Notes under the pieces: generated by a model
The model's input: the letters and a program-made list of their open reading frames with translations, nothing else
What the model was told of the DNA's origin: nothing
The model's database searches: none
Assembly: GCF_040253635.1 (NCBI RefSeq)
Contig: NZ_JBEJGX010000003.1
Coordinates: forward strand, 2,604,001 to 2,668,000
DNA length: 64,000 nucleotides
Direction: 5' to 3'
DNA from: Streptomyces sp. Edi2
GTDB lineage: Bacteria; Actinomycetota; Actinomycetes; Streptomycetales; Streptomycetaceae
Position numbers and translations under genes: made by a program
Shown here: positions 5,675 to 64,000 of the stretch, in pieces
How the letters are laid out: each line of letters starts with the position of its first letter
How positions within the stretch are numbered: the stretch's first letter is position 1

Positions 5675-6154
5675 TCACCGCCAGGCCAGGCCGGCGGCCG
5701 CCGCGGTCACCAGCGCCACCACGGCCACCGTGCCGCTCAGGAGCCCGGTGACCAGCCGTCGCCGCAGAGCCCGGTAGACGCCCTCGTACTCGCTCCGCAG
5801 GGCGGTGCTGCGGACCGCGATGCGCTCCAGGTATGCCCGGGAGGTGTCGCGCTGGTCCTGGCAATAGCGCAATTCCACTTCCCACCGCTGGGAATCGGTG
5901 AGCCAGGGCAGGCCGTCGCAGAAGGCCCGCGCACGGCTGCGCGCCCGGTCCTTCTCCGCCTCCCAGAGAAGGAATCCCTCGATCTCGTTGATGGCCTGGT
6001 CCTGATCGAGCGGCACCTCCTCGCCCCTCCGTACTCCCTCGTCCCGCCATATTCCCTCGGCCGTTCCCGTTTCCCCGCCGCCGCGCATTCCTCGGTCCGC
6101 CCCCGATCCCTCGCCGCGCCACGTTCCTCCGCCCCGCCGTGCGCCCTCGTTCAT
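5675..6154 (-). CDS. Small membrane protein coupled to cytochrome oxidase subunit I
   Basis: Up to 159 residues. The conserved-looking part begins near [23 protein letters not shown], continues as a charged helical domain ([24 protein letters not shown]) and ends in one transmembrane helix ([21 protein letters not shown]), giving a C-tail-anchored topology. The ATG at 6154 overlaps the ctaD stop as ATGA, suggesting translational coupling. The first 46 residues are Gly/Arg low complexity, and an internal GTG at 6016 preceded by GGGGCGAGGAG is a serious alternative start (113 aa). Function unknown; context suggests an accessory to the terminal oxidase paralogue. Confidence 0.6.
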
Positions 6155-7797
6155 ATGCGTGCTCCGATTTCAGCCACCGGGGCTTTACCGGTATCGCCGA
6201 GGGCCCCGTTCTCCTGGGCGATCTCCGGGTGATGCAGGTCGAATGCCGGGGATTCGGAGCGAATACGCGGCAGGGTGAGGAAGTTGTGCCGCGGCGGCGG
6301 GCAGGACGTCGCCCACTCCAGCGAGCGGCCGAAGCCCCACGGGTCGTCGGCCTCGACCTTCTCGCCGTACTTCGCCGTCTTCCAGACGTTGTAGAAGAAC
6401 GGCAGCAGGGAGAGCCCGAGGAGGAAGGAGAAGATGCTGGAGACGGTGTTCAGGGCGGTGAATCCGTCCGCGGCGAGATAGTCGGGGATACGCCGCACCA
6501 TGCCCTCGGCGCCCAGCCAGTGCTGGACGAGGAAGGTGCCGTGGAAGCCCACGAACAGCGTCCAGAAGGTGATCTTCCCGAGCCGCTCGTCCAGCATCTT
6601 GCCGGTGAACTTCGGCCACCAGAAGTGGAAGCCCGCGAACATCGCGAACACGACGGTGCCGAACACCACGTAGTGGAAGTGCGCCACCACGAAGTACGAG
6701 TCCGAGACGTGGAAGTCCATCGGCGGCGAGGCCAGGATGACACCGGTCAGACCACCGAACGTGAAGGTGATCAGGAAGCCGATCGTCCACAGCATCGGCG
6801 TCTCGAAGGACAGTGAGCCCTTCCACATCGTGCCGATCCAGTTGAAGAACTTCACACCGGTCGGCACAGCGATCAGGAACGTCATGAACGAGAAGAACGG
6901 CAACAGCACGCCGCCCGTCACATACATGTGGTGCGCCCACACCGTGACCGACAGACCGGCAATCGACACCGTCGCCGCAATCAGGCCCATGTAACCGAAC
7001 ATCGGCTTCCGGGAGAACACCGGAATGACCTCGGAAATGATGCCGAAGAACGGCAGCGCGATGATGTACACCTCGGGATGCCCGAAGAACCAGAACAAAT
7101 GCTGCCAGAGCAATGCCCCGCCATTTGCGGCATCGAAGACATGCGCCCCGAATTTACGGTCCGCCTCCAGCGCGAACAGCGCCGCCGCCAGCACCGGGAA
7201 GGCCAGCAGGACCAGCACACCGGTCAGCAGCACATTCCAGGTGAAGATCGGCATCCGGAACATCGTCATGCCGGGTGCCCGCATGCAGATGATCGTCGTG
7301 ATGAAGTTGACCGAACCGAGGATCGTACCGAAGCCCGAGAAGGCCAGACCCATGATCCACATATCCCCGCCGATATTCGGGGAATGCACGGCGTCGGAGA
7401 GCGGTGCATACGCGAACCAGCCGAAGTCCGCCGCCCCTTGAGGCGTCAGAAATCCCCCCACCGCGATCAGCGAACCGAAGAGATAGAGCCAGTACGCGAA
7501 CATATTCAGCCGGGGAAAGGCGACATCGGGCGCGCCGATCTGCAGCGGCATGATCCAGTTCGCGAATCCGGCGAACAGCGGCGTCGCGAACATCAGCAGC
7601 ATGACCGTGCCGTGCATCGTGAACGCCTGGTTGAACTGCTCGTTCGACAGGAGCTGGTGGCCGGGACGGGCCAGTTCGGCGCGCATCAGCAGCGCCATCA
7701 GTCCGCCGACGCAGAAGAACGCGAAGGCGGTGACCAGGTACAGCGTGCCGATCGTCTTGTGGTCGGTGGTCGTCAGCCACTTCACGGGAGATCTCAT
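6151..7797 (-). CDS. ctaD: Cytochrome c oxidase subunit I (aa3-type), paralogue
   Basis: A 548-residue heme-copper oxidase subunit I with twelve predicted membrane helices. It reduces O2 to water at the heme a3/CuB centre in the plasma membrane. Ligand motifs are visible: [12 protein letters not shown] for heme a, [14 protein letters not shown] with the His-Tyr pair of the CuB site, WAHHMY for CuB, and [10 protein letters not shown] for hemes a3 and a. ATG 7797 gives the usual [20 protein letters not shown] start; longer upstream frames run through the divergent sigma-factor gene. Subunit II and III genes are absent here, so this is probably a second copy outside the main ctaCDE/qcr locus. 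It heads a two-gene unit with the small membrane protein. Confidence 0.95.
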
Positions 7798-8580: not shown

Positions 8581-9601
8581 GGAACTGGAGCTGCTGCGGC
8601 AGGCCGACCCCGTCTCCGCCGAGGAGGGGCCCTGGCGCGACCGCCCGCTGACCGCGTCGGCCGAGGCCCGCCTGCAGGCGCTGACGGCCGGCGCCGCCCC
8701 CCGCGGCCGTCCGCGCCCCGTCCGCCGTCGCCGCCTGGTGCTGGGCCTGACCGCCGTGTCGTCGGCCGTCGCCGCCCTCGTGCTCACCTTTTCCGGGGCC
8801 GGCAGCGGCCCCGCCGTCGCGGCGCCCGTCGCCCTCGCCCTGCACGCCGATGCGCCCTCGGTCCCGCTGGACGTCCTGGCCCGCAGGGCGGAGGCCAGGG
8901 CGCGGGCGGCCGGTGCCGCGGACGGGCCGAGCCGGGGCAGCCATCTGCAGAGCTGGTACATGAGCATGGAGTCGGGCCCCGACGCCGATCCGCCCGTCAC
9001 CGTGCCCGAGGAGCGCATCACCCGCTGGCACGACGACGGCAGCGGCTCGGAACTGGTCGTGGCCACCGACCCGCAGCACCCCGGCCGCCCGGTGATCCAC
9101 GACAACGACGGCCACTGGCAGACCGTCAGCGACGGCAAGGTGCTGCACCGCAAGACCTATCCGGCGGGCTCGGAGGCCCAGCACAGCGGCCTCGCCTCCC
9201 GTACGAAGCCGTCGACCGACCCCGCGGAGCTGCGCGAACAGCTGTCATGGCTCTACGGCGGCCCCGGCGGCACCCGTACGACTCCGGAGCTCCTGTCGGC
9301 GCTCTCCTCCTTCCGCCAGGAATGGACCCCGGGGCCGCGGGAGACGGCCGCCATCGTCCGGATGCTGGCCGATGCGGGCGGGCTGCGGCAGGCGGGCGTG
9401 GTCACCGACCGGATGGGCCGGCACGGGCAGGCGTATGTCTACGACGGTCCCGACGGCGCCGCGAACTCCACCCGCCAGATGGTGATCCTCGATCCGCGCA
9501 CCGGCGAACTCCTGGGGCTGGAGATCACCTTCACCAAGGACGCACCGGAATTCAAGATCAAGTCGGGGGAGGTCATGTCGTACGAGGCGTGGATGCCGTG
9601 A
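8573..9601 (+). CDS. CU044_5270-type membrane protein, probable partner of the ECF sigma factor
   Basis: A 342-residue single-pass membrane protein. A short cytoplasmic N-terminus ([19 protein letters not shown]) is followed by an Arg-rich stop and one helix (LVLGLTAVSSAVAALVLTFSG near residues 59-79), then an exterior domain of about 260 residues. This layout and the wording of the external domain match the CU044_5270 family, which sits directly after ECF sigma genes in actinobacteria. It is believed to act in sigma-factor control or signal sensing; no zinc anti-sigma motif (HxxxCxxC) is visible. The eight-base overlap with the sigma gene implies coupled translation. Confidence 0.8.
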   Translation: MTEELELLRQADPVSAEEGPWRDRPLTASAEARLQALTAGAAPRGRPRPVRRRRLVLGLTAVSSAVAALVLTFSGAGSGPAVAAPVALALHADAPSVPLDVLARRAEARARAAGAADGPSRGSHLQSWYMSMESGPDADPPVTVPEERITRWHDDGSGSELVVATDPQHPGRPVIHDNDGHWQTVSDGKVLHRKTYPAGSEAQHSGLASRTKPSTDPAELREQLSWLYGGPGGTRTTPELLSALSSFRQEWTPGPRETAAIVRMLADAGGLRQAGVVTDRMGRHGQAYVYDGPDGAANSTRQMVILDPRTGELLGLEITFTKDAPEFKIKSGEVMSYEAWMP

Positions 9602-10142
9602 GGTGTGGCTGCCGGGAGGCGTGGGTGCCATGAAACGTGGCTGCCGGGAGGCGCGGATGGGGTGAGGCGCGGCTGCCGGGAAGCCTGTCGGTGTGCCATG
9701 GCGGCCGGCCGGGCGGGCCCACGCCCGAGTGGCGGGGCCGGCAGTCATGGCTGACCCTTGAGGGAACGCGACGATCCACATCGGCGCGGCGGTCCGAAGT
9801 GCGCCGCCGCGCCGCATTCGTGCGTGCCGCGCTCCTTTCCTGCATGCCGCGCCGCTTTCCTCCATGCCGCGCCGCATTTGCGCCCGCCGCACCTCTTTTG
9901 CGCCCCGGCGCGGCACTCCCGTCACCCCGGCCCGCCGCGACCCACCCCTCCCTCCTCCACGTGGCACACCTCACAATCCGCCGAAGGTTGCAGCGGATCA
10001 TCGCGATATGGATCACAGACATAAGCGTCGTGAATTGCTCTGCGACAGGGCGTTTCCCCAGCAAGGAGCGGGTATACGGCCACCTGCGCGGTCGTCCGCG
10101 CACTGTCCGTGATGATCCGGTCTGCCCCTATGGTCGACCTTT
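9602..10142. other. Gene-free stretch with imperfect repeats
   Basis: No gene is supported between the sigma partner and the MHS transporter. At 9604-9685 the unit GTGGCTGCCGGGAGGCG recurs three times at about 30-bp spacing with small changes. At 9800-9880 CATGCCGCGCCGC-type units recur. Around 10000-10030 there is a less GC-rich patch containing an ATCGCGAT palindrome and CATAAG, which may hold the transporter promoter, but no convincing -35/-10 pair can be fixed by eye. Confidence 0.5.
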
Positions 10143-10188
10143 GCCCGCCGCTCCGTGGCGGGCTTGGGCCCGCCGCTCCGTGGCGGGC
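10143..10188 (+). repeat. Two identical tandem hairpins in the leader of the MHS transporter gene
   Basis: A 21-bp sequence with perfect arms GCCCGCC and GGCGGGC around the loop GCTCCGT occurs twice, at 10143-10163 and 10168-10188, separated by TTGG. Each copy is a stable hairpin. They lie 44-89 bases before the proposed GTG start of the transporter, so in RNA they would form a double stem-loop in the 5' leader. The two could also pair with each other. They could be attenuator or stability elements, or a duplicated terminator. Confidence 0.65.
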
Positions 10189-10231
10189 GGAGTCATGTTG
10201 TCGTCCAAAGAGAGCGCAGGCGAGCGAGCAC

Positions 10232-11731
10232 GTGCCGACGCATTCCACCGTCGCCCCCGGGCCCCGTAACCCCGTCGGCAGCCGTGCCGACACCGCATCC
10301 GATCCGCAACGGGAGCGGGCCGGGGATCCGGCGCAGCAATCGTCGGACGCGGTGACCGTCGTCGATCCCGCGATGGTCAAACGCGCCGTGTCGGCGGCCG
10401 CGCTCGGCAATGCGATGGAGTGGTTCGACTTCGGCGTGTACAGCTACATCGCGGTCACCCTCGGACACGTCTTCTTCCCGTCCGGGAATCCGACCGCGCA
10501 GTTGCTGTCGACGTTCGGGGCGTTCGCCGCGGCGTTCCTGGTCCGCCCCATCGGCGGCATGGTCTTCGGGCCGCTCGGTGACAAGATCGGCCGCCAGAAG
10601 ATCCTCGCCATCACCATGATCATGATGGCGGCGGGCACCTTCAGCATCGGCCTGATCCCGTCCTATGCCTCCATCGGCGTCGGGGCGCCCATCCTGCTGC
10701 TCGTCGCCCGCCTGGTACAGGGCTTCTCCACCGGCGGCGAATACGGCGGCGCCTCCACCTTCATCGCCGAGTACGCGCCCGACAAGAAGCGCGGATTCCT
10801 CGGCAGCTGGCTGGAGTTCGGCACGCTGGCCGGTTACGTCGGCGGCGCCGGCCTGGTCACGCTGATGACCGCGCTGCTGTCCACCGAGGACCTGACCTCC
10901 TGGGGCTGGCGCATCCCGTTCCTGATCGCCGGACCGATGGGCATCATCGGCCTCTACCTGCGGATGCGGCTGGAAGAGACCCCGGCCTTCGCCCAGTTGG
11001 AGAAGGAGGCGCGGAACAAGGAGAAGGAGCGCCGCGAGGCCGAGAAGCGGATCGGCATCCGCGAGATGATCTTCGGTCAGTGGCGGTCGATGCTGCTCTG
11101 CGTCGGGCTGGTCCTGGTCTTCAACGTCACGGACTACATGCTGCTGTCGTACATGCCGAGCTACCTGACCTCGGAGCTCAAGTACGACGAGACGCACGGA
11201 TTGCTGGTCGTGCTCGCGGTGATGGTCCTGATGATGGGCGTCCAGCCGTTCGCGGGCCGGCTCACCGACCGCTTCGGCCGCCGTCCGGTCATCGGCGCCG
11301 GCTGCGTCGGCTTCCTGGTGCTGTCCGTGCCGGCCCTGCTGCTGATCCGGCAGGGGTCGCTGGCCGCCATCGCGCTGGGCATGGCCGCCCTCGGACTGCT
11401 GCTGGTCACCTTCACCGCGGCCATGCCGTCCACGCTGCCCGCGCTGTTCCCGACCAAGGTGCGCTACGGCTCCCTGTCGATCGGCTTCAACGTCTCCGTG
11501 TCGCTCTTCGGCGGGACGACGCCGCTGGTGGTCACCGCCCTGATCGGCGCGACCGGCAACAAGATGATGCCCGCCTACTACATGATGGCGGCGGCCGTGA
11601 TCGGCGGCATCGCCGTCCTGCTGATGTCGGAGAGCGCCCGCAAGCCGCTGCCCGGCTCCCCGCCGGCCGTCGAGACCGAGGCGGAGGCACGCGAGGTCCG
11701 CGACGCCGTCAAGGCCGGTGCGGCAGCCTGA
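10232..11731 (+). CDS. MFS transporter, metabolite:H+ symporter (ProP/ShiA-like) family
   Basis: A 499-residue, twelve-helix secondary transporter of the metabolite:H+ symporter group, which imports osmolytes such as proline/betaine or organic acids with protons. Family signatures are AALGNAMEWFDFGVYSYIA at the first helix, GDKIGRQKILAIT in loop 2-3, RLVQGFSTGGEYGGASTFIAE, and DRFGRRP between helices 8 and 9. An acidic/basic loop (EKEARNKEKERREAEKRIG) separates the two halves. The start is uncertain: GTG 10232 is chosen because relatives carry a short hydrophilic N-terminus before VDPAMVKRAV; ATG 10373 is the shorter option. The resemblance to ProP suggests compatible-solute uptake, but substrate cannot be read from sequence. 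Confidence 0.85.
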   Translation: MPTHSTVAPGPRNPVGSRADTASDPQRERAGDPAQQSSDAVTVVDPAMVKRAVSAAALGNAMEWFDFGVYSYIAVTLGHVFFPSGNPTAQLLSTFGAFAAAFLVRPIGGMVFGPLGDKIGRQKILAITMIMMAAGTFSIGLIPSYASIGVGAPILLLVARLVQGFSTGGEYGGASTFIAEYAPDKKRGFLGSWLEFGTLAGYVGGAGLVTLMTALLSTEDLTSWGWRIPFLIAGPMGIIGLYLRMRLEETPAFAQLEKEARNKEKERREAEKRIGIREMIFGQWRSMLLCVGLVLVFNVTDYMLLSYMPSYLTSELKYDETHGLLVVLAVMVLMMGVQPFAGRLTDRFGRRPVIGAGCVGFLVLSVPALLLIRQGSLAAIALGMAALGLLLVTFTAAMPSTLPALFPTKVRYGSLSIGFNVSVSLFGGTTPLVVTALIGATGNKMMPAYYMMAAAVIGGIAVLLMSESARKPLPGSPPAVETEAEAREVRDAVKAGAAA

Positions 11732-56811: not shown

Positions 56812-57450
56812 ATGATCGAGAGCATCGGAAACACCGCCCCTGGCTGGATCACCGGCCTCATGGACACCCTCGGCGCACCCGGCGCAGGTGTGGCCATCGC
56901 CGCGGAAAATCTCTTCCCGCCTCTGCCGAGCGAGGTGATCCTGCCGCTGGCGGGCTTCGCCTCCGCCCGCGGCAGCATGCATCTGGCGTCCGCGCTCGCG
57001 TGGACGACGCTCGGCTCGGTGAGCGGCGCCCTGGCGCTGTATGGCGTGGGAGCGTTGCTCGGGCACGAGCGAACTGTCGCGATCGCATCGAAACTGCCGC
57101 TGGTAAGGGTGTCGGACATCGAGAAGACGGAGCACTGGTTCCGACGACACGGAACGAAGGCAGTGTTCTTCGGCCGGATGATCCCCCTCTCCCGCAGCCT
57201 CATCTCGATACCCGCCGGCATCGAGCGCATGCCGATACCGGTCTTCCTCGCCCTGACCACCCTCGGCAGCCTCGTCTGGAACACGATCTTCGTCCTCGCC
57301 GGCTATCTGCTCGGCGACAACTGGGAGGAGGTGACGGGGTATATGGACGTCTATTCGAAGGTGGCCCTCGCGGCAACTGCGCTGGCGGTGGCGGTCTTTG
57401 TCGTTGCCCGCGTCAGCCGGTGCGGCCCGGGCGCACGGCGCCGCGGATGA
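56812..57450 (+). CDS. DedA-family membrane protein, second copy
   Basis: A 212-residue DedA-family lipid-flippase-like protein. The N-terminal re-entrant region is NLFPPLPSEVILPLAGFASARG, and FFGRMIPLSRSLISIPAGIERM carries the conserved F-x-x-R and P-x-G motifs. C-terminal helices follow. It resembles YngC-type DedA proteins. ATG 56812 has GAGG roughly 20 bases upstream. It is divergent from the two-component system and may be its target. Its end overlaps the convergent HAD gene by 38 bases. Confidence 0.88.
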   Translation: MIESIGNTAPGWITGLMDTLGAPGAGVAIAAENLFPPLPSEVILPLAGFASARGSMHLASALAWTTLGSVSGALALYGVGALLGHERTVAIASKLPLVRVSDIEKTEHWFRRHGTKAVFFGRMIPLSRSLISIPAGIERMPIPVFLALTTLGSLVWNTIFVLAGYLLGDNWEEVTGYMDVYSKVALAATALAVAVFVVARVSRCGPGARRRG

Positions 57451-58288
57451 AGGCCCGTACGATTTCCTCGCCCGCGGCGACGCCCCGTTCGTCGAGGGCC
57501 GTGACATGAGGGGCCTGCCAGCCGGAGTCCGCCAGTTCGCCGTGGCCGGGCCGCCATGCACGGTCCGCGGCCAGCAGCAGATCGGCGTCGAGGAGGGAAT
57601 CGCCGGCCGCAAGGATCTCGGACGCTCCGGTGCGGCGGGCCACTTCCGCCACGGCTGCGCTCTTGGTCAGCGGCTTCGGCACGGCGTAGATCTTGCGGCC
57701 CTGCAGGGACACGGTCCAGCCGCGTTCGCCGGCCCAGCCGGTCAGGTCCTTCACCCAGGTGTCCGGCAAGAGCGGCCGCTCCACGACGAGATAGGCGAAA
57801 AGGTCCTCGGCAACGCGTTCCTTGCGCAGCCAGGCCGGGTCGGCGGTGCGGACCAGGTGCGCGCGGACCTCGTCCAGGGGCGCGCACTGCGCGGAGAGCC
57901 GCCCGGCGACGGTGCGCTGCCAGTCGGGGTCCGACTCACCGCGTACGAGCAGATGGCCGCCGTTGGCGCAGATGGCGAACTCGGGGGCGGGCCCGGGGAG
58001 GTGGATGCGGCGGTACTGCTCGCGGGTGCGGGTGGTGGCCGGGACAAAGGTGGTGGTGGCGGCCAGTTCGGCGAGCAGGGCGGCGGCCGTCTCCGTCATA
58101 TAGGACAGCGGCTTGCGCTCATAGGTCTCGACGCACAGGAGCCGGGGAGCCTCGGCGTCCGGCATGGCGAGGCCCAGGGCGGGGGCCGAATAGATCAGGG
58201 TGCGGTCGAGGTCGCTGGCGACCAAAAGAGGGGCAGCGCGCAGCGCTTCCAGGGAAGGGTGGTGGTGGGCGAGGGGCCGGCCGCTCAT
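57413..58288 (-). CDS. HAD-family phosphatase of the Ter biosynthetic operon
   Basis: A 291-residue HAD hydrolase with a cap of the phosphomannomutase/Cof type. Motif I is LLVASDLDRTLIYSAPAL, motif II TTFVPATTRTR, the Lys is in PKPLTKSAAVAEV and motif IV ILAAGDSLLDADLLLAA. The start ATG 58288 shares one base with the stop of the PRTase gene (TGATG), so it is translationally coupled. In published Ter-linked biosynthetic modules a HAD enzyme acts with PRTases and an aldolase-like lyase to form a nucleoside-like compound; here it would remove phosphate. It converges on DedA with a 38-base overlap. Confidence 0.85.
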   Translation of the reverse strand: MSGRPLAHHHPSLEALRAAPLLVASDLDRTLIYSAPALGLAMPDAEAPRLLCVETYERKPLSYMTETAAALLAELAATTTFVPATTRTREQYRRIHLPGPAPEFAICANGGHLLVRGESDPDWQRTVAGRLSAQCAPLDEVRAHLVRTADPAWLRKERVAEDLFAYLVVERPLLPDTWVKDLTGWAGERGWTVSLQGRKIYAVPKPLTKSAAVAEVARRTGASEILAAGDSLLDADLLLAADRAWRPGHGELADSGWQAPHVTALDERGVAAGEEIVRAFIRGAVRPGRTG

Positions 58289-60990
58289 CAAGAGGCCACC
58301 GCCTTGCCGTCGGCACCCGTGGCCCCGCGGGTGAAGCGGGGGTGGATCAACCCCACACAGCTGTAGGGCAGTTCGTCGACCTCTTCGACGGGCACACCCC
58401 GTTGTTCCGCCAGGAGGCGCACATGATCGAGGTCGGGCCCGGCCCCCTGCCGGGCCAGGATCTTCCAGGGGACCCGGCGCAGCAGCACGCGCGTGGTCTC
58501 GCCGACACCGGGCTTCACGAGATTGACGTCGTGGATGCCGTACTCCTCGCTGATCCGCTCGACGGCCGCCCAGCCCTCCCAGGTCGGCGCCCGGTCGGCG
58601 CCGGCCAGCTCCTTCGCCTCCGCGGCGACCTCCGCGGCCACCTCGTCGAAGCGGGCACTGACCGCGTCCAGGAACGCGCGCGACACATCCGCCGAGGCCA
58701 GGTCGCGGTAGAACTTCGCGCCGTGGAAGTCGTCCGGCCCCACGAGGTCGTCGCGCAGGACGGTGCGGGATATGAGGCCGGAGACGGTGGAGTTCAGGCA
58801 GGCGGACGGGATGAGGAAGTCGTCCCGGGTGCCGTAGGTCTCGACACAGCCACCGGGGTCGGCGAGCACGGCGATCCGGGGGTCAAAGCCCGGGAAGTCC
58901 GCCAGGGCCTGGGCGAGTTCGCGAGTGATGGCGCCCTTGCCGGTCCAGCCGTCCACGAAGACGACATCCGCCGGATCGTGACGGTCGGCCAGCCAGCGCA
59001 GCGCGGTGGTGTCGATGCCCCGGCCGCGGACGATCGAGAGGGTGTAGTGCGGCAGCTCCAGGCCGTGCGCGTGCAGCGCCCAGCGGCGCATCAGCACCCC
59101 GACGGGGGTGCCGGCCCGGGCCAGCGACACCAGCACGGGGCGCGGGCTGCGTTCGGCGAGCACGGTCTCGGTGACGGTCCCGACCGCCCGCGCGATACGG
59201 CTCGCGGAGGTCTGCAGCGCACTGTGAAAGAGCGCCTGGTACTGCTCGCTCGGCTGGTATTCGACCGGCAGCGACTCGGCGTAGTGGGCGCCACCGCGCT
59301 GAATCGCCTCCTCGCGCTCCTCGGTCGGCGCCTCGAGGGTCACGTCGGAGAGGTCCTGCAGCAGCCAGCCGACCTCGTCAGCGGTGTAGGAGGAGAAGGC
59401 GGGGCCGCGCAGCGGCTCGGGGAGGGGCATGGGCCGGGCCTGTGGTTCGGGATGCGGCGTGGACGGGGCCTGTGGCTGCGGGGCGTACGAGGGGATGACG
59501 GCGAGCAGCAGCCGGCCGGTGTGCTCGGCAAGCCGGTGCAGCAGACCGTCGGTGGCGTGCAGTTCCGGGGAGTCTCCGTGCGAGTCCACGACGGCCACGA
59601 TGGCGTCGAAGCCGCGCTCCGGGTCGGCGCCTGCCGCCACGTTGTAGGCATACCGCTCCCCCGGGCCGTCGGCCGGCTTGTCGTGAGCAGGGAAGGACAG
59701 CCGGGTCCGTATCGCGTAACCGGGGTCGTCGACGGCGAGCACCGGCGACCGGGTGGTGGTGGAGAAGAAGACGCCCGGCCCCGCTGTCGTCGCGGACAGC
59801 CGGCCGCGCCGGAGCCCAGGGGCGCCATCCCCCGCATCGATGCCGTCAGGGTTCGGCGTCGGCCCGGCGCCGCCCGCCTCCTCGACCAGGAGGGCGTCCA
59901 GGGCCTCGGCTATCCGCAGCGGCGCGTACATCAATTCCTCGCTGCCGAGGACGAGGATGCGGCGGGCGCCGTCCAGCTGCCGGGCGATCCGGGTCGCCAT
60001 GTGGGGCAGAGCGGCCTCCAGCCGGGCGCGGTGTGCCGGTGTGAAGCCGTGCCGACCGCCGTCCGGCAGCCCGGCGGGCCAGTCGAAAGCGACCCGCACG
60101 ACGTCCGCGCCGCCACCGGGCGCCGGCGGTGCGTCGGCCGGCCCGGGGCCGCGGTCGGTGCGCTCGGAACCAGCGGCGTCGTGCCCGGAACCCGCTCCGT
60201 CGGAGCTCGCTCCCTCGGACGCGGTCCCCGTGACGGGCGCAGTGGCCCGTGCCGCCGCAAGGGCCTCCTGGGCGGCGACGAGTTCCTGGCCGCGGGTCAG
60301 GACGTCCGCCGGCAGACGTACGCCGCCCGCGGCCAGCGCCACGAGGTCGACGCGGGCGCCCAGTTCCGCCGCGAACTTCTCCAGGTGGCCGCGGTCCGCG
60401 TCGGAGCGCATGTCGACCAGGGCGACGACCACGTAGCGCTCGCGCGGGAAGTGCGCATGCAGCGCGGTGATCGTGTTCAGGACGGTCCGGCCGGTGGAGA
60501 ACTCGTCGTCGACGAGCACCAGCGGCCCGTCCCCGGCGAGGAGTGCGCGGTTCTCCGGGAGCAGCAGATGCGAGGTCGCGTGGCTGTGCTCCTCCTCGAA
60601 CCCGCCCACCTGCGCCACGCCCGCGACCGGCCGGCGGGTGGAGTGCAGATACGGCGCGAGGGCCAGGCCGTCGGCCACCGAATGTCCCAGGCCGGTGGCG
60701 GTTTCGGCGTAGCCGAGGACGACGGAGCGGGCAGCGGCCTCGTCGCCCAGCAGCTTCCGCACCCGGCGACCCAGCCCGACGCCGGCGCCATGGACCACGT
60801 CCGGCCGCTGGGGCACGTGCTTGCCGAGCACGTTCGACACGAGCAAATGGGCCCGCTTGGGGTTACGCCGCAGCGCCAGCCCCAGCAGTTCCGGCAGCTC
60901 GTCCCCGCCGCTCAGCGAGACATCGAGCCGTCCGGCGACCCATTCTCCCGTCCAGACCACGTGTTCCGTCTCCTTCGTCGTACCGGTCAT
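58288..60990 (-). CDS. Fused phosphoribosyltransferase / TRSP / PRTase-1 (StiP-type) protein of the Ter module
   Basis: A 900-residue protein. Residues about 30-245 form a PRTase domain with PRPP motif PLVLVDDEFSTGRTVLN (157-171). An acidic linker follows (246-295), then a TRSP domain (about 300-500; RHGFTPAHRARLE, VLGSEELMYAPLR, DSHGDSPEL). Residues about 530-885 form a second PRTase-like (StiP, PRTase-1) domain with VVFVDGWTGKGAITREL (676-691). In many bacteria these are separate genes; here both lie in one chain. ATG 60990 is chosen because GGGGA precedes it by six bases; a longer start at 61029 is weaker. It should add ribose-phosphate groups in making a nucleoside-like product. The product is unknown. 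Confidence 0.85.
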   Translation of the reverse strand: MTGTTKETEHVVWTGEWVAGRLDVSLSGGDELPELLGLALRRNPKRAHLLVSNVLGKHVPQRPDVVHGAGVGLGRRVRKLLGDEAAARSVVLGYAETATGLGHSVADGLALAPYLHSTRRPVAGVAQVGGFEEEHSHATSHLLLPENRALLAGDGPLVLVDDEFSTGRTVLNTITALHAHFPRERYVVVALVDMRSDADRGHLEKFAAELGARVDLVALAAGGVRLPADVLTRGQELVAAQEALAAARATAPVTGTASEGASSDGAGSGHDAAGSERTDRGPGPADAPPAPGGGADVVRVAFDWPAGLPDGGRHGFTPAHRARLEAALPHMATRIARQLDGARRILVLGSEELMYAPLRIAEALDALLVEEAGGAGPTPNPDGIDAGDGAPGLRRGRLSATTAGPGVFFSTTTRSPVLAVDDPGYAIRTRLSFPAHDKPADGPGERYAYNVAAGADPERGFDAIVAVVDSHGDSPELHATDGLLHRLAEHTGRLLLAVIPSYAPQPQAPSTPHPEPQARPMPLPEPLRGPAFSSYTADEVGWLLQDLSDVTLEAPTEEREEAIQRGGAHYAESLPVEYQPSEQYQALFHSALQTSASRIARAVGTVTETVLAERSPRPVLVSLARAGTPVGVLMRRWALHAHGLELPHYTLSIVRGRGIDTTALRWLADRHDPADVVFVDGWTGKGAITRELAQALADFPGFDPRIAVLADPGGCVETYGTRDDFLIPSACLNSTVSGLISRTVLRDDLVGPDDFHGAKFYRDLASADVSRAFLDAVSARFDEVAAEVAAEAKELAGADRAPTWEGWAAVERISEEYGIHDVNLVKPGVGETTRVLLRRVPWKILARQGAGPDLDHVRLLAEQRGVPVEEVDELPYSCVGLIHPRFTRGATGADGKAVAS

Positions 60991-61065
60991 CTGTTTCCCC
61001 GCAGGCCGCGTCTGCTCACGGCCGCTCATGCCTGCTCATGCCTGCCCACACCTGCCCACACCTGT

Positions 61066-62238
61066 TCATGCCTGCGGCAGGCTCGCCGTCAGCAGCTCCA
61101 CGAACCCGATGCCTTCCCGGGCGACCCCGAACGCCTCGGCGCGCAGCAGGGTCCGCTCGGCCCAGGCGCGGTGCGGCTTCACCTCGTTCATCTTGTTCGT
61201 ATAGGCGGAGCGCAGCACCCCGCCGTCGCCCCGTTCGGGACGCAGGATGTCGACCGCGTCGCTGAACTCCTCATGGCTGACGACCGAGAGGGCGTGCACC
61301 GGCGCGACATGCGAGGGGTGAATGCAGGTCTTGCCCTGCAGACCGTTCGCGCGGTCGAGTTCGATCTCCCGCAGCAGGCCGTCCATGTCGTGCTCGATCA
61401 GGGCCGTCCGCAACTCCTCGGCGCGGCCGAGGAACGGGCTGCGGCGCAGCTGCGGCTTGAACATCCGCTCCTGCAGCCGGAAGTACTCCCACACCGGGCC
61501 GGTGACCGTGAAGCCCGTGCCGTCCGCCCGCCCCAGCACATTCACCACATCGGCGATCACGGAGGCGACGATCTGGACGTCGTAGGCCGTCATGTCGGGA
61601 GCTCTGCGCAGTCCGTAGGCGGAGCAGAAGTCCGTGACGCCGAGCCGCAGGGCGAGCACCCGGTCCCGGTATTTGTCCACGGTCCGGGCGATGCCCGCCA
61701 GGGTCTCGGCGCGGCTCTCCAGATGCAGCAGCTGCGGCGATTCCAGCACCGGCATCACAAACAGCCGCCGGGCGCAGTCGCCCTCGGCCGCGTTCAGCGC
61801 TTCGAGGAACGGGATGCCACGCTCCTCGGTGAACTTCGGAAGTACAAAACCGGACAGCCTGTGTACGGCAGTGCCCATCCGGCGGACCAGGTCCGGTATT
61901 TGGCCGGGTGTGCGGACACGGACGAACAGCAGGGGAAGATCCGCACCCGCATCGGCCGCCTCGTCGAGCAGGGCGAGCTGCCGCACCAGGTTCTCCTCGC
62001 CGGCCTCGACGTCCCCGTCGCTTATGGAGTCCTCGAGGCACAGGACCATGGAAGTCACGCCACGAGCGGCCTGCTTGAGGACATCGGCGGCGAGTCGCGG
62101 GCGGGTGGCGGGGCTGTAGAGCGTCGCCCCCAGAGCGACCGCGAGCGTGCGGGCCGGGGAGTCGGCGGTGAACTCCACCGGCTCCTGGTGGAACAGTGTC
62201 TTCCGGATATCGGGCGAAAGGTGCCCAAAATGACGCAT
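61066..62238 (-). CDS. HpcH/HpaI aldolase/citrate lyase-family protein of the Ter module
   Basis: A 390-residue TIM-barrel lyase. VTSMVLCLEDSISDGDVEAGEENL carries the metal-binding Glu-Asp motif, and LFVMPVLESPQLLHLES and LGVTDFCSAYGLRR complete the active site. A C-terminal helical extension (GLQGKTCIHPSHVAPVHAL) binds substrate phosphate in relatives. It is the first gene of the operon. In Ter-linked modules such an enzyme is predicted to cleave or condense a small carboxylate during synthesis of a nucleoside-like compound. ATG 62238 gives the usual MRHFGHLS start. It is divergent from terD. Confidence 0.88.
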   Translation of the reverse strand: MRHFGHLSPDIRKTLFHQEPVEFTADSPARTLAVALGATLYSPATRPRLAADVLKQAARGVTSMVLCLEDSISDGDVEAGEENLVRQLALLDEAADAGADLPLLFVRVRTPGQIPDLVRRMGTAVHRLSGFVLPKFTEERGIPFLEALNAAEGDCARRLFVMPVLESPQLLHLESRAETLAGIARTVDKYRDRVLALRLGVTDFCSAYGLRRAPDMTAYDVQIVASVIADVVNVLGRADGTGFTVTGPVWEYFRLQERMFKPQLRRSPFLGRAEELRTALIEHDMDGLLREIELDRANGLQGKTCIHPSHVAPVHALSVVSHEEFSDAVDILRPERGDGGVLRSAYTNKMNEVKPHRAWAERTLLRAEAFGVAREGIGFVELLTASLPQA

Positions 62239-62456
62239 ATAACTCCCCGTCTACATGCGGGATCCGGCACCCCCGCTGCGTCTCGCTGTCTGGATCCAGC
62301 CGGTAATCGTACGTGTGTGGGGGCATGGTTAGTTCCCGCGTACCGGAAAATCACGTAACCCCCACGAGGCGCGCCCGGGTATCGCGGCCGTACCCCGGAA
62401 ACGGCTGGTGGCCCCCCGCGTTGTCGCTGCGACCTCCGGGAAGGCAGGATTGCGGC

Positions 62457-63641
62457 ATGACGCACGCGATGCTGAAAGGGTCGAACGTACCCCTCGATGC
62501 CACGGCTGTCCGGGCCGTCCTGCGCTGGACCCCCGGCGCCGGTGTCCCCGACGTCGATGCCTCGGCCCTGTTGGTGGGACCCGAGGGGCGTGTGAACTCC
62601 GACGAGGACTTCGTCTTCTACAACCAACCACGGCACCCCAGCGGCCTGGTGCGGCACCTGCCCAAGACTCAGCTCGAGGAGAGTCTGACCGACACCATCG
62701 AGGCGGATCTGTCGGCGCTGGACGCATCGGTGGACCGGGTCGTGCTGGCCGCGTCGTCGGACGGTGGCGCGTTCGCGGGCGTCACGGATCTGCGGGTCGT
62801 GCTGTACGACGCGGCGCAGAGCGACGGCGAGCCGATCGCGGTCTTCGACGTGGTTCCCGAGACGGGCGAGGAGACGGCCCTGATCTGCGGGGAGTTGTAC
62901 CGGCGCGCCGACAGCTGGAAATTCCGCGCCCTGGGGCAGGGGTACGAGAGCGGTCTGGTCGGCCTGGCGACCGAGTTCGGGATCTCGGTGGACGAGAACG
63001 AAGCCGCCGCCGACGGTCCGCCGGCCTCGGAAGCGCCGGTGTCGGCGCCGCCCGGCCCCGAACCCGTGGCGGCACCCACCGGCCCGGAACCGTCGTCGAC
63101 CGCCGACCCGGCCCCGGGGAGCGATCCCGGCCCGTCCGGCGCCCCGGCGGCCCCCGGCCCGGCAGTGCCCGGCCCCGCCGCCTCCGCCGCGACCCCGCCG
63201 CCCAGCACCTGGCCCGAGGAGGCCTCCGGCCCCCCGTCCGCCGCGGGCCCCCAGGCCTCTTCGGCGTCGGATCCGGAAGCGGTCACCCAGCATGTGCCGG
63301 ACGCCATGCCCGAGCCGCTGTCGTCCGCACCGCTTCCCTCACCCCCCACCGCGGCGCCCCCGGCGCCGGGAATGGCGCCCACGAGCGGCGGCTACGGCTA
63401 TCCGCAGAACGTTCCGCCACCGCCGACGCAGCCCCCCACGCAGTTCCCGGCCCAGCCCGCCTACGGCTACCCGGGACCGCCGCCCCAGTACCAGCCGCAG
63501 CAGCCGCCGCTCCCGTACGGCGCTCCGCCCCCGGCCCAGCAACCGCCGGCCTCGACGTACGGCTACCCGGTGCAGCAGCCCTTCGTACCGGACCCGTCCT
63601 TCGTTCTGCCGCCCCAGGGCCCGCAGTTCCAGCGCCGTTAG
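62457..63641 (+). CDS. TerD-domain protein with Pro/Gln/Tyr-rich tail
   Basis: A 394-residue protein. Residues 1-180 form a TerD calcium-binding domain: LKGSNVPL, VDASALLVGPEGRVNSDEDFVFYNQPRHP with the acidic Ca2+-binding strand, AASSDGGAFAGVTDLRVVLYD and FRALGQGYESGLVGLATEFGISVDE. After that the chain is a Pro/Ala/Ser-rich linker and a repeat tail with YGYPQN, YGYPGP and YGYPVQ units. TerD proteins act in stress response and in tellurite, phage and chemical resistance; the tail is not part of standard TerD. ATG 62457 is used. Divergent from the biosynthetic operon, sharing a 218-bp promoter region. Confidence 0.92.
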   Translation: MTHAMLKGSNVPLDATAVRAVLRWTPGAGVPDVDASALLVGPEGRVNSDEDFVFYNQPRHPSGLVRHLPKTQLEESLTDTIEADLSALDASVDRVVLAASSDGGAFAGVTDLRVVLYDAAQSDGEPIAVFDVVPETGEETALICGELYRRADSWKFRALGQGYESGLVGLATEFGISVDENEAAADGPPASEAPVSAPPGPEPVAAPTGPEPSSTADPAPGSDPGPSGAPAAPGPAVPGPAASAATPPPSTWPEEASGPPSAAGPQASSASDPEAVTQHVPDAMPEPLSSAPLPSPPTAAPPAPGMAPTSGGYGYPQNVPPPPTQPPTQFPAQPAYGYPGPPPQYQPQQPPLPYGAPPPAQQPPASTYGYPVQQPFVPDPSFVLPPQGPQFQRR

Positions 63642-63654
63642 GGAGACCGGGCGG

Positions 63655-63681
63655 GTGCCGCCGGCGGCATGGCCGCGGCAC
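63655..63681 (+). terminator. Hairpin after terD
   Basis: GTGCCGC (63655-63661) pairs with GCGGCAC (63675-63681), loop 13 bases with its own CCGGCGG self-pairing. It lies 13 bp past the terD stop, before the convergent Ter-family gene. The rest of the 209-bp gap is GC-rich, with a duplicated GCCCGGCTCA (about 63828-63852) and no gene. Confidence 0.55.
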
Positions 63682-63850
63682 GGACGTAAGGCCGCGAGGG
63701 CGCCGCACGACGGGAGGCTGCGGGGCCGCAGCACCGGCGGGACCAGGGGGCCCGGAGGCAGGACAAGTGACCCGCCCCATCGTCGGCGGGCCGCTCGTCC
63801 CCGGCGCAGCACGCCCCCAGCTCAAGCACGCCCGGCTCAGCGTGCCCGGC

Positions 63851-64000
63851 TCAGGCGTTCGTCTTGTAGCCCCGCCCCCACTGCAGCCCCCAGCCGTACA
63901 GCCGGTCGAGCTCCGCCTGGAAGCCGTAGACGTACTTCACCTCGCGGCGCACCGTCAGCTCGCCCTTGACGTTCTCCAGCATGAAGATGGCGCAGGACCG
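63851..64000 (-). CDS. Ter-family protein, C-terminal end only
   Basis: The last 49 codons of a gene entering from the right edge. The sequence SCAIFMLENVKGELTVRREV followed by KYVYGFQAELDRLYGWGLQWGRGYKTNA resembles the end of Ter-family proteins (TerA/TerD-like) in Streptomyces, where this tail is well conserved. It converges on terD with a 209-bp gap. The rest of the gene is outside the window, so its exact subfamily cannot be fixed. Confidence 0.55.
   Translation of the reverse strand, partial: RSCAIFMLENVKGELTVRREVKYVYGFQAELDRLYGWGLQWGRGYKTNA

Follow-up and report, generated by a model that had tools for sequence, protein, structure and literature searches.

Streptomyces sp. Edi2 carries, within a 64,000-nucleotide stretch of contig NZ_JBEJGX010000003.1 (positions 2,604,001 to 2,668,000 of the forward strand; this whole stretch is called the window, and its numbering is used throughout), three genes on the minus strand that code, in order, for a carbon–carbon (C–C) bond lyase (61066–62238), a 913-residue fusion protein (58288–61029) and a haloacid dehalogenase (HAD)-type phosphatase (57413–58288). 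These three genes are a Ter-linked biosynthetic operon, in agreement with an initial annotation of the window. We consider it probable, at about 0.6, that the operon represents the Ter biosynthetic module in its actinobacterial form, which has no ATP-grasp, that it makes a nucleoside-like compound and that it works by the steps proposed below.

Enzymes of the operon

The fusion protein showed the Pfam architecture PRTase_2–TRSP–StiP–PELOTA_1. All three families that had been anticipated for a double-phosphoribosyltransferase (PRTase) protein were matched, namely PF15609 PRTase_2 (residues 48–235, E 1.4e-68), PF12500 TRSP (E 4.1e-34) and PF11202 StiP (residues 546–790, E 2.7e-107), together with PF15608 PELOTA_1 (residues 817–896, E 7e-36). 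The same four domains were found in all 120 relatives listed for the protein, which, where an organism name was given, came from Streptomyces. Comparison of the fusion sequence with solved structures gave matches at chance level (best E 0.07). The 900-residue protein of the initial annotation corresponds to an alternative start at 60990, the second in-phase ATG of the 913-residue reading frame, which itself begins at 61029. A 10-bp tandem repeat (61012–61075, minus strand; 6.4 copies with 77% matches according to Tandem Repeats Finder) spans the lyase stop codon, the short spacer between lyase and fusion genes, and the possible fusion starts. At the other end of the fusion gene its stop overlaps the phosphatase start in the sequence TGATG, so that the coupling of the last two genes noted in the annotation is present.

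The PRTase_2 domain (60325–60888, minus strand; profile search E 2.5e-69 in addition to the Pfam match) contains the sequence VDDEFSTGRT, which conforms to the type I phosphoribosyl pyrophosphate (PRPP) motif hh[DE][DE]xxxTGx[ST]; the pattern was present in 117 of 122 surveyed sequences. In a profile comparison the domain gave only weak matches, to UMP synthase and PyrR.

The first gene of the operon encodes a CitE/HpcH-like TIM barrel of family PF15617 (E 8.7e-122), 52% identical to its counterpart in Mycolicibacterium alvei, and the residues L-E-D, F-x-R-x-R and M-P-x-x-E were kept at a level of at least 95% in 124 sequences. The phosphatase was assigned by similarity and HAD motifs. It had no Pfam match at E 1, resembled a solved trehalose phosphatase (E 4e-10) and was 48% identical to the gene in the same position in M. 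alvei; within its family the motif D.D.T was present in 120 of 122 sequences and GD...D in all 122. In the 9.8-Mb genome there was a single match each for PRTase_2 and StiP, one strong and one weak (29.1 bits) match for the lyase family, and 13 matches for TerD.

A pathway may be proposed from these assignments. In view of its intact PRPP motif, PRTase_2 would use PRPP to add phosphoribose to a small acceptor, either base-like or an amine, and StiP, which has its own conserved DGWTGKG loop, may perform a second step on the resulting ribosyl-phosphate compound, with PELOTA helping or steering; for this step the fold is a predicted one and the chemistry is presumed. The lyase, judging from its family, would make or break a C–C bond on the acceptor, and the phosphatase would strip the 5′-phosphate, thus freeing the nucleoside-like compound. 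The divergent and linked TerD, TerA and TerC proteins could sense or use the compound at the membrane, as suggested by their linkage. The fusion would ensure that the two PRTase-type enzymes are made in equal (1:1) amounts, without being essential, and the ATP-grasp ligation of proteobacteria would be a tailoring step dispensed with here.

The StiP and PELOTA domains

The StiP domain (58660–59394, minus strand; Pfam and structure model) is predicted to adopt a PRTase fold. Its model had a predicted local distance difference test score of 90, and the structural matches were type I PRTases (PyrR, HGPRT). The PRPP loop is non-canonical, reading FVDGWTGKG in 119 of 123 sequences, with the canonical pattern in one of the 123. 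Two PRTase-type domains are thus present in one chain, as annotated, the second of them according to its predicted model, but a second PRPP-dependent transfer is uncertain because StiP has no canonical PRPP loop. The adjoining PELOTA_1 domain (58342–58581, minus strand) has an L7Ae/YbxF-like kink-turn RNA-binding fold, with matches to YbxF and to L7Ae/L30e kink-turn binders.

These results could also be expected if StiP–PELOTA were a nucleotide-sensing RNA regulator, in which a PyrR-like fold binds a pathway nucleotide as well as an RNA kink-turn and controls expression. Many PyrR structures were among the closest solved folds, PyrR is an RNA-binding PRTase, and both the kink-turn matches of PELOTA and the altered PRPP loop of StiP fit such a role. 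However, an alignment of 47 StiP sequences, drawn from two phyla and one phage, contained 48 invariant columns, many of which hold H, R, D or K, a conservation pattern that suggests catalysis; no Rfam match was obtained at E 0.1 between 56500 and 64000, and StiP–PELOTA shares its chain with a PRTase whose motif is intact. PyrR itself, a uracil PRTase and mRNA-binding attenuator, showed 19% identity; its PRPP motif is the canonical one, and it is not known to carry a PELOTA domain. We regard the regulator as unlikely. Improbable, in our estimate, is a third possibility, that StiP–PELOTA is an RNA-directed enzyme of PRTase fold, which, with its conserved DGWTGKG loop, would not use PRPP in the usual manner; it would attach, exchange or release the ribosyl-phosphate compound made by PRTase_2 on an RNA that PELOTA holds.

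The Pfam and NCBI name of the second PRTase-type domain is "cysteine protease StiP" (formerly PRTase_1), and under this name the operon would process or regulate proteins under stress. A well-kept cysteine does exist in each lineage, in 43 of 43 actinobacterial sequences and, at a different position, in 91% of 80 proteobacterial ones, so that a StiP devoid of any conserved cysteine would be too strong a statement. The best cysteine column overall, however, reached 59% of 130 sequences, no column of the alignment had cysteine in at least half of both lineages, and the StiP model matched PRTases. No protease fold was among the 50 structural matches listed for the model, a listing too limited to exclude one. 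A protease is highly improbable, and we argue that the database name is wrong, the PRTase reading resting on the predicted model.

Distribution of the fusion and of the ATP-grasp gene

The fusion is normal in Streptomyces but not essential. In a genus sample of 121 Streptomyces genomes, for which frame and contig positions were compared by eye, StiP was found in 119, PRTase_2 in 119 and at least one of them in all 121, both lying in one open frame in 111 genomes, which rules out the fusion as a quirk of the Edi2 genome. The two parts were split on one contig in three genomes (G232, G253 and G244); in the first two the split falls at the linker with a restart of its own (TGA..ATG and TGATG, respectively), and in G244 it was judged from the frame lengths alone, 522 and 382 residues. 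In three further genomes (G302, G278 and G290) PRTase_2 and StiP were on different contigs. The genomes without a PRTase_2 match (G246, G267) or without a StiP match (G228, G293) perhaps reflect contig breaks. StiP was found in 93 of 394 genomes of a class sample, one of them below the cut-off, and in 10 of 198 genomes of a phylum sample.

Two panels of loci were also compared, neither of them unbiased: 44 actinobacterial loci hand-picked from the genus and class searches, of which 42 had both parts in the stretch, and 80 proteobacterial loci that ranked highest against a query led by Enterobacter. Among the 42, the halves were fused in 21, from Streptomyces and three other family codes (f3, f77, f79), and were separate frames in the other 21, including L024 and L088 from the three split genus genomes; no fused locus was found in the 80. 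A single fusion event was unsupported by a quick tree of 50 rows (L070, without a state, was left out), on which parsimony gave six state changes, at least three of them forced by well-supported branches. The initial annotation suggested that the single chain channels two glycosyl transfers; such channelling is not demonstrated by the data, nor is it needed, since the halves occur separately in the three genus genomes and 21 loci just described.

Some loci depart from this layout. Locus L022 (G219, contig C2) carries a second, unfused StiP copy at 9317–10636 (56% identity), and the 19-kb stretch around it gave no match to PRTase_2, the lyase or the phosphatase. L023 (G130), from another actinobacterial lineage, has a minimal set of divergent PRTase_2 and StiP together with four TerD-type frames, with no match to the lyase or the phosphatase. 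L028 (MT836648), a 15-kb contig recorded as a bacteriophage whose phage status is unclear, has a StiP (44% identical), PRTase_2, the lyase and three TerD frames. A helical, coiled-coil-like protein is encoded beside the operon in L025 (5503–6543), L024, L054–L065, L067, L080–L085 and L087–L093; it had no Pfam match, and no profile match was found for it in the 20-kb stretch L002 of the Edi2 genome.

The same stretch around the operon gave no match to an ATP-grasp gene, as the annotation had stated for the operon; the absence is not peculiar to this genome, however, as 43 of the 44 actinobacterial loci showed none in the stretch, the exception being L068 (G373). Of the 80 proteobacterial loci, 61 had an ATP-grasp gene near StiP, a number that rises to 63 when matches of any score are counted; several of the remaining 19 are short contigs. 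The profile built for this analysis was seeded mainly from proteobacteria, and PF15632 searches of 28 actinobacterial genomes were added for this reason; a strong match close to StiP was found in G373 only. In the genus sample, the 47 listed PF15632 rows above 100 bits were all, by eye, on another contig or at least 0.4 Mb from StiP and PRTase_2. An ATP-grasp gene hidden elsewhere in the Edi2 genome was rejected, its PF15632 matches being weak and the best (44.7 bits) lying on another contig. The first operon gene of M. alvei was likewise rejected as a divergent ATP-grasp, having neither a Pfam match nor similarity. Because the gene is carried by 61 of 80 proteobacterial and one of 44 actinobacterial loci, ATP-grasp is best seen as outside the shared core, a tailoring step in most of the sampled proteobacteria.

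Seventeen of the 80 proteobacterial loci had no ATP-grasp match at any score. Examples of loci without the gene are six from Xenorhabdus (L106, L107, L110, L115, L116 and L121). In L146 (Burkholderia sp. D-99, 6083–6863) the ATP-grasp match falls in two separate frames, of 75 and 28 bits, which may mark a gene in decay.

Ter linkage, expression and significance

Ter genes flank the operon on both sides, as annotated. A TerD-domain gene with a proline-rich tail (62457–63641, plus strand; PF02342, E 2e-43 measured on a longer frame from 62313) diverges from the lyase gene, an arrangement found in 14 of 14 Streptomyces loci. Converging on it at the edge is the 3′ end of a TerA-like gene (63851–64000, minus strand, running past the window edge), which had no Pfam match at E 0.01 but shares 44% identity with a protein that bears the annotation "Tellurium resistance". 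Past position 64000 this gene is followed by genes for TerC/DUF475, two TerD proteins, a peroxiredoxin and DUF3052, and then by a frame that we take from its translation to be pyruvate dehydrogenase E1-like. The Ter linkage is kept in actinobacteria, proteobacteria, plasmids and one phage, most f69 loci excepted. In the f69 loci L069–L079 the biosynthetic genes are present, but the stretches seen around StiP contained no TerD match; either the linkage is not universal or the Ter genes are located farther away.

The Ter biosynthetic module was reportedly defined in 2012 by Anantharaman, Iyer and Aravind with PRTase_2, TRSP, StiP, PELOTA, the C–C lyase and the HAD phosphatase. Compared with that module, as known from citations and Pfam names, the operon has the same enzymes and TerD/TerC linkage, but it has no ATP-grasp gene, its PRTase-type genes are fused and its phosphatase gene is last. 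The M. alvei plasmid pJCM12272 (L025) is similar, with lyase, PRTase_2–TRSP, StiP–PELOTA and HAD genes in an order identical to that of Edi2, TerD, TerC and TerA-like genes beside them and no ATP-grasp match in the stretch; unlike in Edi2, its PRTase-type genes are separate with overlapping ends, the locus is plasmid-borne and a gene for the helical coiled-coil-like protein precedes the lyase. An IncHI2-type plasmid of Enterobacter bugandensis (L026) also has all module enzymes, beside terZABCD-like genes, but ATP-grasp comes first, the order is PRTase_2, HAD (thus between the PRTase-type genes), StiP and lyase, and its StiP is about 39% identical. The "poorly described system" of the initial annotation is thus a Ter biosynthetic module, but a lineage variant of a published one, ordinary in Streptomyces, and not a new system. 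The literature searched gave no identified metabolite of the module, and no account of the fusion, short of the 2012 founding paper and a 2015 paper on SCO2368, where it may well appear. In a Klebsiella paper the biosynthetic half is called putative and the prediction of a nucleoside-like product is repeated (PMC8115787).

A jumbo-phage review restates the proposal of a nucleotide-derived signal produced by the PRTases and HAD enzymes of the Ter module, with TerB/TerD as possible sensors of it and TerC possibly acting at the membrane, and cites phage ME3 (PMC7824862). That proposal would make the operon an anti-phage or conflict system, its nucleotide product signalling infection, and is favoured by the occurrence of the module on plasmids, where 1683 of the 2567 records with a match were predicted to be conjugative, and in phage ME3, whose locus, read here, carries it. 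The present operon, however, is chromosomal and at least partly present in every genome of the genus sample, unlike a patchy defence island. Six proteins compared with the PADLOC models gave no match at E 0.01, a negative that carries little weight. We find a defence role distinctly unlikely.

The intergenic region between the lyase and TerD genes, common to both as the annotation's shared promoter implied, was aligned for 14 Streptomyces loci (280 kb in total). The promoter-like element it contains, GGAAC-N18-CGTAC (62309–62336, minus strand), is conserved in Streptomyces and lies on the lyase side: GGAAC-N17-19-CGTA was present there in 13 of 14 regions, and these 13 are included in the 16 matches in the whole 280 kb. 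GTAAC was enriched (13 in 4,392 bp versus 88 in 280 kb). No sigma-70-type promoter was matched in 62100–64000, and GGAAC-N15-18-CGTC was found in none of the 14 regions. If genes are counted from SCO2368 as the first TerD, SCO2364 would be the divergent TerD gene and SCO2362 the fusion, a putative assignment by position. Published studies list sco2368 as a sigma-E target whose product rises with vancomycin (PMC6767563), describe an antisense RNA at sco2364 conserved in three species (PMC3765725), and report for S. venezuelae a more than 5-fold, GlnR-dependent induction of Sven_2176/SCO2362 by nitrogen starvation (PMC3087709). Such induction, if SCO2362 is indeed the fusion, and near-universality in the genus sample are what would be expected of a housekeeping or nitrogen-stress system for nucleobase salvage or storage, next to Ter genes for historical reasons only. 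Yet a strict GlnR box was found in just one of the 14 intergenic regions, and the Ter linkage is kept as widely as described above; salvage is decidedly improbable.

What is added here to the Ter module is model-based support for an oddly looped PRTase fold in StiP, and the finding that neither fusion nor ATP-grasp is indispensable. The variant trims the pathway to three genes without ATP-grasp and is nearly universal in a genus for which genetics and metabolomics are well developed, and it draws attention to an enzyme of PRTase fold whose loop is unusual and which adjoins an RNA-binding-type domain. If the RNA-directed reading of StiP–PELOTA were true, the Ter module would mark or sense RNA and not only make a free metabolite, and in Streptomyces the fusion would couple synthesis to the RNA step.
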